This document shows positions 23,151 to 24,901 of a stretch of DNA of 49,225 nucleotides, piece by piece. Source of the DNA: an uncultured Roseibacillus sp. (GTDB lineage Bacteria; Verrucomicrobiota; Verrucomicrobiia; Verrucomicrobiales; Akkermansiaceae); the NCBI GenBank assembly GCA_937949965.1, contig CALFBF010000082.1, forward strand, positions 1-49,225, in the 5' to 3' direction. The translations under genes were made by a program, and so were the position numbers. The notes beneath the pieces were generated by a model, which made no database searches, was not told where the DNA came from, and saw nothing but the letters and a program-made list of their open reading frames with translations. How positions within the stretch are numbered: the stretch's first letter is position 1; each line of letters begins with the position of its first letter.

Positions 23151-23840
23151 TTAGCTTTTTATGATCTTAAGTTCGGATTGGTGTAATTGGGGCTTTTTAG
23201 TTAGATTAAGAAATTCTTCCAAATAGTTCCAATGGAGGGTGTCTCCCGAGATTGAAAGATGGCTCCGTGACCAAGTCTGTGCGTCTGGCCGATTCATGCG
23301 CACCGTATAGGCAGAGGCAGTTTGATTACATCCATTTTGGTAAGCTGCTAGATCGCTTGTAGTCTCGAAGGCAGCGACGCGAGCAGCTTTAACTTCCTCG
23401 AAGTGATAAGAGGAGCTGGTCATCGGGAGCTGAGGCGAAAAGCTTTTAAGCTGATTGTCTTGCCAGCTGAAACCTTGCCGTGTGCCTTCTGCAAAAGCGA
23501 TTAGATCGAAGGGTCGGCAACCTGAGCAAAGGAGGGGAATTTGTTTGGAGAGCGCGGCGAGGCTGGTCACGTCACAAAGCTGATTCACCACTTTTCCACG
23601 GCTCTTAGTAGCAGTCGTCTGTGAAGTCTCGTGCCATCTGTTCAAGAGACAGATGATGAGTCCATGTTCATTAGCGAGCATCCAAGTGCCGCCGGCGTCG
23701 GGGTCGATGGGGCTAAGGTAGTTCGTGCCTTGGGGGCTACGGTGAAGGGAAGGAGGAAGCGCACGTCCTCGTGTTTTCAGTTCATCACGGTTGAAGAAGA
23801 TCTCTAGTTGATGGTCTTGTTGCCAAGTCAGGGTACACAT
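23151..23840 (-). CDS. NRDE/TANGO2-family protein
   Basis: Encodes 229 residues from the ATG at 23840. The frame is open 32 codons further up, but the family begins MC-T with Cys at position 2, and MCTLTW plus the NRDE motif (IFFNRDELKTRGRAL) fit exactly. DPDAGGTWMLANEHGLIICL is the next conserved stretch. TANGO2-like proteins have an Ntn-hydrolase-like fold with an N-terminal Cys; their cellular role is debated (haem handling and lipid links have been proposed in eukaryotes). It lies downstream of the terminator at 23931-23983 and is thus probably a separate transcription unit from the UGA-containing gene before it. Confidence 0.8.
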   Translation of the reverse strand: MCTLTWQQDHQLEIFFNRDELKTRGRALPPSLHRSPQGTNYLSPIDPDAGGTWMLANEHGLIICLLNRWHETSQTTATKSRGKVVNQLCDVTSLAALSKQIPLLCSGCRPFDLIAFAEGTRQGFSWQDNQLKSFSPQLPMTSSSYHFEEVKAARVAAFETTSDLAAYQNGCNQTASAYTVRMNRPDAQTWSRSHLSISGDTLHWNYLEEFLNLTKKPQLHQSELKIIKS

Positions 23841-23930
23841 CGTCTTGGGGATGGATTTCAAAAAGGAACAACGAGTTCCCGCGGTTAGAGCGCAGTGGGT
23901 TGCGCTTGAAGTACGAAAAAGGGTGTAAAA

Positions 23931-23983
23931 AAACATCTAGCCTAGAGGTCTCCCTTACTTGGGAAACTCTGGTCTAGATGTTT
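23931..23983 (-). terminator. Strong terminator after the UGA-rich gene
   Basis: Outer stem AAACATCTAG (23931-23940) pairs perfectly with CTAGATGTTT (23974-23983); an inner imperfect stem (GGTCTCCC with GGGAAACTC region) closes on a short loop. On the minus strand the hairpin is followed by TTTTTTT (complement of the A run at 23927-23933). This fits a Rho-independent terminator for the gene at 24014-24319, showing that the UGA-containing frame lies inside one transcription unit. Confidence 0.8.
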
Positions 23984-24013: not shown

Positions 24014-24319
24014 TTAAGAAGGAGAATCCGTTCCGGCAGCGTCTTCGTCGGTAGTCGTTTCCTCACCGACCGGTGAGGTGGATTTGCTGTTTCATGTGCT
24101 CCCAGACTGGGAGTTGGTAGTTGAGCCTCACGTGCTCCCAGACTGGGAAGGGCTCGCAGATCCTCATGTGCTCCCAGACTGAGAGCTACCGCCAGACATT
24201 CATGTCGCGACTCCCATGGAAGGGAGAATCCACATTTGTGCTGCGAGGTAGACCCCTACCACTGCAACCACAGTTAGGATGCCACCGGTGGCACTCCCGT
24301 TTTGATTGTTCATCTTCAT
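24014..24319 (-). CDS. Putative small membrane protein with four in-frame UGA codons (candidate multi-selenocysteine protein)
   Basis: From the ATG at 24319 one frame runs 101 codons to TAA at 24016-24014, broken only by UGA at codons 40, 52, 64 and 76 (24202-24200, 24166-24164, 24130-24128, 24094-24092). Residues 1-39 are MKMNNQNGSATGG, a membrane segment (ILTVVAVVGVYLAAQMWIL) and PSMGVAT. Then come 12-codon units UMSGGSSQSGST, UGSASPSQSGST, UGSTTNSQSGST and a diverged fourth unit, and an acidic tail (TTTDEDAAGTDSPS). Shared residues differ between units mostly at third positions (GGA/GGC, TCT/TCA, TCT/TCC, ACA/ACG), which favours this frame over the other two. Each UGA has a hairpin 13-14 nt downstream. 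It lies 70 bp after a DoxX-type gene and ends at a strong terminator. If UGA is not decoded, the product is a 39-residue membrane peptide. No selenocysteine machinery is in the window, so decoding is inference. Confidence 0.55.
24061..24078 (-). promoter_or_regulatory. SECIS-like hairpin after the fourth UGA
   Basis: On the minus strand CCTCACC pairs with GGTGAGG (7 bp, all Watson-Crick) around a GGUC loop. It begins 13 nt after the UGA at 24094-24092. The stem sequence differs from the hairpins of units 1-3 while position and loop are kept, as expected if the structure is what is selected. Confidence 0.5.
24099..24113 (-). promoter_or_regulatory. SECIS-like hairpin after the third UGA
   Basis: Minus strand CTCCCA-GUC-TGGGAG: perfect 6-bp stem, GUC loop, beginning 14 nt after the UGA at 24130-24128. 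Confidence 0.5.
24135..24149 (-). promoter_or_regulatory. SECIS-like hairpin after the second UGA
   Basis: Minus strand TTCCCA-GUC-TGGGAG: 6-bp stem with one G-U pair, GUC loop, beginning 14 nt after the UGA at 24166-24164. The loop GU lies at positions 21-22 after the UGA, close to the position known for the E. coli fdhF SECIS. Confidence 0.5.
24170..24186 (-). promoter_or_regulatory. SECIS-like hairpin after the first UGA
   Basis: Minus strand GCTCTCA-GUC-TGGGAGC: 7-bp stem with one U-G pair, GUC loop, beginning 13 nt after the UGA at 24202-24200. Confidence 0.5.
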
Positions 24320-24389: not shown

Positions 24390-24806
24390 TTAAGCCTCCT
24401 TCTTGGCTTGGCACTTGAGATCAAAGCTCCAAGAACCAGCCCCTTTCCAGAGAATGAAAAGAGAAAGGAGAATAAGTATGATAGGGAGAGGCAGGGGAGG
24501 CTCGTCGGCCCAATCGTGCACCAGGTGTGTGTAGATTGCCATGCTCATTGCGGGAATGGTTAAAGCCGCTCCGATCCGAGCAAAGTAACCAGAAATCAAG
24601 AGTGCTCCAGCAAGAACCTGCATTACTGGCCCCACAATGGCATTGAGCTCTGGGAGAGGAATACCCGCTCCTCGCAGAATAGGTTCCAAAGGTGCCACCC
24701 CAACGAGATGCTGAATACCGATTCCTAAAAGTGGGAGTGCGATTAAAATTCGTGCGATTCCAGCTGATTTCAGGTTTGTAGTTTGTGTGATCAGTTTCAT
24801 GTTCAT
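24390..24806 (-). CDS. DoxX-family membrane protein
   Basis: Encodes 138 residues from the ATG at 24806 (TTG at 24812 is an alternative). It has four probable membrane segments: IARILIALPLLGIGIQHLV, then around AIVGPVMQVLAGALLISGY, ARIGAALTIPAMSMAIYTHL and PLPIILILLSLFILW. The pattern matches the small DoxX/DoxD-like family; related proteins join redox or thiol/sulfur chemistry at the membrane, but most are uncharacterised. The C-terminus KCQAKKEA is cytoplasmic-looking. It is 70 bp upstream of the UGA-containing gene on the same strand, with only a small CCTAC/GTAGG hairpin in between, so the two may be cotranscribed. It is divergent from rseP. Confidence 0.75.
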   Translation of the reverse strand: MNMKLITQTTNLKSAGIARILIALPLLGIGIQHLVGVAPLEPILRGAGIPLPELNAIVGPVMQVLAGALLISGYFARIGAALTIPAMSMAIYTHLVHDWADEPPLPLPIILILLSLFILWKGAGSWSFDLKCQAKKEA

Positions 24807-24901
24807 GGTCAAGACGCTCTAGTGGTTTATCTTATTCCACTTCTCGACTACAGCCTTGCGGAAAGCAATAAAATCGGGCACAGTCCCAAAGTTAAACAAC
24901 T

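Follow-up and report, generated by a model that had tools for sequence, protein, structure and literature searches.

Genes and features at the locus

We analysed a stretch of 49,225 nucleotides, hereafter the window, from an uncultured marine Roseibacillus sp. of the Akkermansiaceae (contig CALFBF010000082.1, assembly GCA_937949965.1), in which a short open reading frame (ORF) on the minus strand (24014..24319) appears to encode a selenoprotein with four selenocysteines. The ORF ends with a TAA stop. Four TGA codons lie in frame within it, and with TGA translated as selenocysteine (Sec, U) the product has 101 residues, with Sec at U40, U52, U64, and U76 (MKMNNQNGSATGGILTVVAVVGVYLAAQMWILPSMGVATUMSGGSSQSGSTUGSASPSQSGSTUGSTTNSQSGSTUNSKSTSPVGEETTTDEDAAGTDSPS). 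The start codon could be either the ATG at 24319 or that at 24313. The translation consists of one hydrophobic span followed by VATU, three GSTU units with a 12-residue spacing, and an acidic tail. The hydrophobic segment ILTVVAVVGVYLAAQMWIL (24224..24280, minus strand) is, judging from its sequence, the predicted single membrane anchor and leads into the signature LPxxGxxTU.

The four Sec codons all lie on the minus strand. UGA1 (Sec40, 24200..24202) represents the ancestral first site, and UGA4 (Sec76, 24092..24094) is the counterpart of the last Sec codon of two-Sec relatives in the homologue alignment. Between them, UGA2 (Sec52, 24164..24166) and UGA3 (Sec64, 24128..24130) fall within a duplicated cassette, as indicated by the repeat array, the translation, and the alignment. 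Tandem Repeats Finder identified this array on the minus strand at 24092..24185 with a period of 36 nt and 2.6 copies, covering the duplicated units of a Sec codon and its downstream hairpin.

Homologues and forms of the family

A search of 260 Akkermansiaceae genomes yielded about 60 homologues with TGA aligned to UGA1. Three homologues of the window protein (L064, L188, and L190) had Cys at this position. L189, from the same family as L188 and L190, has UGA. Sec/Cys exchange of this kind is what typically identifies a selenoprotein in comparisons of homologues, and the in-frame UGA of the window aligned with UGA or Cys in its homologues, as would be expected of a bacterial selenoprotein. Order-, class-, and named-genome searches extended the family to other Verrucomicrobiota, Vampirovibrionia (Obscuribacter and related metagenome-assembled genomes, MAGs), Myxococcota, Deltaproteobacteria, and CSSED10-310, nearly all of them with UGA. 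A pattern-based search of the named genomes with the window protein alone gave no match, and a search with an alignment of homologues (A2) recovered 70 loci.

Residues Y24, W30, L32, P33, G36, T39, and Sec40 were invariant in homologue alignment A1. At the core, what is conserved is a membrane span with LPxxGxxTU at its end, and most forms have another chalcogen residue (Cys or Sec) nearby. The family signature can be written LQLWILPxxGxxTU, and the usual forms carry either a single Sec and, five residues later, a Cys (TUMSGKCSPG or TUMSRSCSVEQ), or two Sec. Two-Sec members include a large genus with TUASKGMSSGGGU and the three congeners of the window genome, which have TUMSSGNSPGGSTU or similar. 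L043 separately acquired a second UGA, which has a hairpin of its own.

Several candidates were set aside. Later UGAs lacking a hairpin at the correct distance (L035, L045, L061, and others) were excluded, and the weak matches G087, G110, G116, G248, G054, and G202:C209 were discarded for want of the signature. In L015, L031, L044, L050, L051, and L071, all from one Akkermansiaceae genus, an apparent second UGA ("CAPU" type) was rejected as a Sec codon: it is the stop of the selenoprotein gene and overlaps the start of a TANGO2 gene (ATGTGCACCCTGA). The Cys forms L188 and L190, from one Verrucomicrobiota family, have a run of Cys residues (TCMSCCCKLEQ). At L174:3001-3069, a truncated homologue has Arg at the Sec site (TRMSDGCK-stop), possibly a UGA mutated to an Arg codon.

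Hairpins downstream of the UGA codons

Each UGA in the window is followed on the minus strand by a hairpin resembling a bacterial selenocysteine insertion sequence (SECIS). Hairpin 1 (GCTCTCA-GTC-TGGGAGC, 24170..24186) starts 13 nt after UGA1, hairpin 2 (TTCCCA-GTC-TGGGAG, 24135..24149) 14 nt after UGA2, and hairpin 3 (CTCCCA-GTC-TGGGAG, 24099..24113) 14 nt after UGA3; hairpin 4 (CCTCACC-GGTC-GGTGAGG, 24061..24078) starts 13 nt after UGA4 and encodes a conserved Pro-Val-Gly. The loops read GUC, GUC, GUC, and GGUC, each 20 nt from its own UGA. These spacings, counted from in-frame UGAs at 24202, 24166, 24130, and 24094, and the GUC/GGUC loops at SECIS distance had been given correctly in the initial annotation. 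The CCCA/TGGG stem that it assigned to units 1–3 was found in units 2 and 3; unit 1 has CTCA/TGGG instead, which includes a U-G wobble. The apical hairpin lies within the minimum free energy structure of the isolated 46-nt segment for all four UGAs. The fold of the whole 217 nt preferentially pairs unit 2 with unit 3.

The published model of the bacterial SECIS (bSECIS) combines a geometry with a cut-off of -7.5 kcal/mol, which was applied here to the perfect isolated hairpin. The geometry was satisfied after all four UGAs and the energy cut-off at UGA1 and UGA4. Both were satisfied by 2.6% of the window's 1722 TGA trinucleotides. Random synonymous recodings gave an equally good hairpin in 28, 46, 2, and 82 of 2000 trials for units 1–4, respectively. 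Dinucleotide-shuffle z-scores were weak for units 1–3 (-0.4 to -0.5) and reached -2.2 for unit 4. An Rfam scan of the selenoprotein region returned nothing relevant. Folding of the single sequence was suggestive only, and it is the comparative evidence on the hairpins that we regard as decisive.

For this comparison, homologous hairpins were anchored on the Val codon of the peptide motif and not on structure. Across 70 distinct hairpins, 96.0% of the cells of a six-pair stem were paired, compared with 66.7% in shuffled alignments, and 138 stem cells had changed on both sides, compared with 49.8. The covariation score was 0.846 against 0.269 in shuffles, with 0 of 500 shuffles as high; these shuffles ignore relatedness, and the stems were drawn from several phyla and two different Sec sites. 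Sliding the partner by 1–3 columns abolished the signal, with all slid structures scoring far lower. The GGUC loop was invariant, as was CGGTCG including the third positions of its codons. In L168, a wholly different stem (GCGGAA/TTCCGC) surrounds the same GGUC and encodes a different peptide. The search for compensatory changes among homologues, named beforehand as a check, thus found a stem that covaries extensively around an invariant GGUC.

Models trained on other genomes located the same hairpins independently. Hairpin 4 ranked first among 98,408 window positions with 20.6 bits (next best 10.6) in a model trained without this genome. Hairpins 1, 2, and 3 ranked 1, 5, and 2 of 98,410 positions, or 2, 5, and 4 when the whole genus was left out of training; part of the remaining top ranks came from the opposite strand of the same hairpins. 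Together, the covariation and the independent ranks indicate that the SECIS has been kept as a structure.

Substitution patterns pointed in the same direction. In the two-Sec genus, the ratio of nonsynonymous to synonymous differences per site (pN/pS) was 0.22 upstream of UGA1, 0.34 from UGA1 to UGA2, and 0.44 downstream of UGA2. The pS value was 0.60 before UGA1, and 0.30 and 0.43 in the two SECIS-bearing stretches. The pN/pS values and the lowered pS fit a constraint on protein and RNA acting on the same bases.

Selenocysteine machinery

The genome encodes a selenocysteine tRNA (tRNA-Sec) with anticodon UCA, SelB (340.9 bits), and SelA (460 bits). With the stem covariation in homologues, this machinery bears out the SECIS reading of the initial annotation, and the identification of the hairpins as SECIS elements appears strongly supported, the function of each unit being what we infer. 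tRNA-Sec and SelB would decode each UGA after recruitment by the hairpin beginning 13–14 nt downstream, and each Sec codon would be served by its own SECIS inside the coding sequence.

SelB and the family also tended to occur together. Among the 260 Akkermansiaceae genomes, 61 had a UGA homologue and 69 had SelB; both were found in 55, the homologue only in 6, SelB only in 14, and neither in 185 (Fisher p 5e-36, uncorrected for relatedness). SelD, itself an established selenoprotein, is present in the three congeners, each with one in-frame UGA. It was not found in the window's MAG, which is 90.6% complete; on inspection, the best partial match reads as ThiL, as does L192, which was rejected as SelD. 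Because all three congeners have SelD, its absence here probably reflects a missing contig in an incomplete MAG.

Origin of the four-Sec array

The four-Sec form was found in the window only. Relative to L013, it has an insertion of 24 residues, exactly two 12-residue units. Within units 1–3, the hairpins have 1–2 differences in 15 positions, namely C-to-T changes after which a U-G pair remains, and the linkers differ at 7–11 of 14 positions. Two-Sec relatives have the same PVG-coding hairpin with a GGUC loop after their last Sec codon. From these alignments, the two sites of the congeners would correspond to UGA1 and UGA4, each together with its SECIS (the one with the GGUC loop at UGA4), and UGA2 and UGA3 would be the extra copies.

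Hairpin 4, which had been described as a copy rebuilt from different bases, is instead the older last SECIS and matches the last hairpin of the two-Sec relatives. The likeness among units 1–3 follows from the tandem duplication that gave units 2 and 3, and the contrast with unit 4 is therefore not itself evidence of selection. The proposal that selection acted on the fold, keeping structure while sequence changed, stands on the covariation among homologues and not on the contrast among units from which it was drawn.

A tandem duplication of 36 nt would copy a UGA and its SECIS jointly with the frame kept, and codon and signal can be duplicated together because a bacterial SECIS sits just after its UGA. 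Two such rounds would have taken the lineage of the window from two Sec to four.

Alternative explanations

Several observations weigh against the reading in which all four UGAs are Sec codons served by their own SECIS elements. The apical hairpins of UGA2 and UGA3, taken alone, miss -7.5 kcal/mol, and in the fold of the whole 217 nt these two units join each other. SelD was missing from the MAG. Serial reading of four UGAs would carry a high cost if Sec insertion had the low efficiency known from E. coli reporters. The four-copy array is known from a single MAG of 166 contigs. Both the number of repeats, which may reflect an assembly error, and the decoding of all four UGAs depend on this one MAG.

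The weakness of hairpins 2 and 3 in isolation, their pairing in the whole-message fold, and linkers that are free to diverge between units could mean that Sec counts in practice at UGA1 alone or perhaps also at UGA4, with UGA2 and UGA3 acting mainly as selenium-dependent stops that give a ladder of truncated products. We consider this unlikely, since the stem differences in units 1–3 are C-to-T changes that keep G-U pairs, as against 7–11 of 14 positions changed in the linkers, and since UGA4 with its conserved SECIS lies beyond UGA2 and UGA3 and can be reached only by reading through them. An assembly or strain artefact in the repeat number, with a real gene of two or three Sec, is less likely still. 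The fragmented MAG and the two-Sec state of the three congeners speak for it; however, the three units are non-identical and therefore did not come from stuttering of identical copies, and the array of ~110 nt fits within a short read. The SECIS reading would hold even in that case.

The conservation of the SQSGST and PVG motifs and the weak z-scores of units 1–3 would also suit hairpins that are by-products of coding for conserved peptides, the UGAs then being stops or marks of a pseudogene. This is very improbable given the covarying stems, the invariant wobble bases of CCG-GTC-GG and TCG-GTC-GAG, the unrelated stem of L168 (GCGGAA-GGTC-TTCCGC) over a different peptide, the exchange of UGA and Cys, and the co-occurrence with SelB. 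A genome-wide reassignment of UGA to another amino acid had no specific support and is hardly credible: tRNA-Sec, SelA, and SelB are present, a SECIS-type hairpin follows every UGA of the selenoprotein ORF, and UGA serves as a normal stop in relatives, as where it overlaps the TANGO2 start codon.

The preferred reading is that of four Sec codons with four SECIS elements. The family, its Sec/Cys exchange, the SECIS covariation, the Sec machinery, and the duplication are all read directly from the genomes, and cells would decode every one of the four UGAs. Very probably, the product is a small single-span membrane protein with four Sec that belongs to a selenoprotein family for which we found no catalogue entry, arose from a tandem cassette, and likely takes part in selenol/thiol redox chemistry.

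Gene neighbourhood and possible function

A membrane-anchored selenol/thiol redox protein is the most likely role, and a ligand for metals or metalloids, using its chalcogens, would be the alternative. A natural fusion in a CSSED10-310 MAG (L168:2956-3450) suggests a redox role: there, the span and UGA are followed in the same reading frame by a canonical thioredoxin domain with WCAPC (Pfam E 3.2e-27). A fused thioredoxin domain was found in L168 only. The family itself, with ~40 conserved residues, one hydrophobic span, and no thioredoxin match, showed no membership of the thioredoxin fold (UxxC).

In Akkermansiaceae, a gene of the TANGO2/NRDE family follows the selenoprotein gene, sometimes overlapping it, and the overlap of stop and start in the one genus noted above suggests translational coupling. 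In the window, this gene (Pfam PF05742) lies at 23151..23843 on the minus strand, and its true start is probably MCTL. Between the two genes, at 23931-23983 on the minus strand, a perfect 10-bp inverted repeat (AAACATCTAG...CTAGATGTTT) precedes a T-run. By its sequence it looks like a terminator, and the selenoprotein and TANGO2 genes may therefore not be co-transcribed here. A DoxX gene lies just upstream of the selenoprotein gene (24390-24812, minus strand) and also adjoins the homologue in L013 and the Cys form L064.

Homologues in Vampirovibrionia (L124, L128, L142, and L160) neighbour genes for CoA-disulfide reductase-rhodanese fusions or MBL-rhodanese, a DsbD N-terminal domain, and ArsA, a putative sulfur/arsenic redox neighbourhood. 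Immediately downstream of the homologue there is a DUF302 gene in a deltaproteobacterial MAG (L144:3159-3560) and in a myxococcal MAG (L170:3150-3575).

Comparison with known selenoproteins

The selenoprotein family had no meaningful match in Pfam, NCBIfam, PHROG, or PDB. A 2026 catalogue lists 119 prokaryotic selenoprotein families with a maximum of 3 Sec, and Table 1 of that catalogue contains no entry or motif matching this family (PMC13188914). In openly licensed papers, nothing was found on the genus or on bacterial proteins with four Sec. The mechanism is known; the family and the expansion of its tandem cassette appear to be new. The gene is short and its UGA follows only ~25–60 codons, which may be why annotation missed the family. 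We think it likely that the locus represents a membrane selenoprotein family spanning several phyla, in which tandem copying of a self-contained UGA+SECIS cassette has here produced four Sec, one more than the maximum in the 2026 catalogue, as a membrane selenol redox or ligand array.

The catalogue would thereby gain a family spread over several phyla. The bacterial SECIS would appear as a portable cassette, with the number of Sec able to rise through simple tandem duplication, and the four-UGA gene offers a natural construct for how SelB serves four closely spaced UGAs. A protein motif is also explained by an RNA signal, since the conserved P-V-G and S-V-E-Q residues are spelled in frame by the GGUC loop and the stem of the SECIS.

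The SECIS of E. coli fdhF, which has an apical loop of the GGUC/AGUC type at a similar distance from its UGA, resembles the hairpins of the window, but no conserved lower stem back towards the UGA, such as the extended stem with bulged U of the fdhF type, was seen here, and the linker is free to vary. The SelD SECIS of Roseibacillus relatives, from the same genus, shares the A-GUC-U or A-GUU-U type of apical loop with the hairpins of the window; however, its loop lies ~33 nt from the UGA, compared with 20 nt, and it serves an unrelated protein. Relative to the bSECIS consensus, as described in the catalogue (PMC13188914), the window has four elements in series in one 101-residue ORF, with the apical hairpins of UGA2 and UGA3, taken alone, missing the energy cut-off of -7.5 kcal/mol.

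Other prokaryotic selenoproteins also have more than one Sec per chain, including NF041537 with 3 Sec, MbdU, UXX-star, and selenobacteriocin. Their maximum in the catalogue is 3 Sec (PMC13188914), this signature is absent from all of them, and the parts of the catalogue covered here describe no tandem SECIS+Sec cassette. Animal selenoprotein P likewise has many Sec per protein, without homology to the window protein. Its UGAs share SECIS elements in the 3' untranslated region (PMC5133445), whereas each UGA of the window would have a signal of its own.
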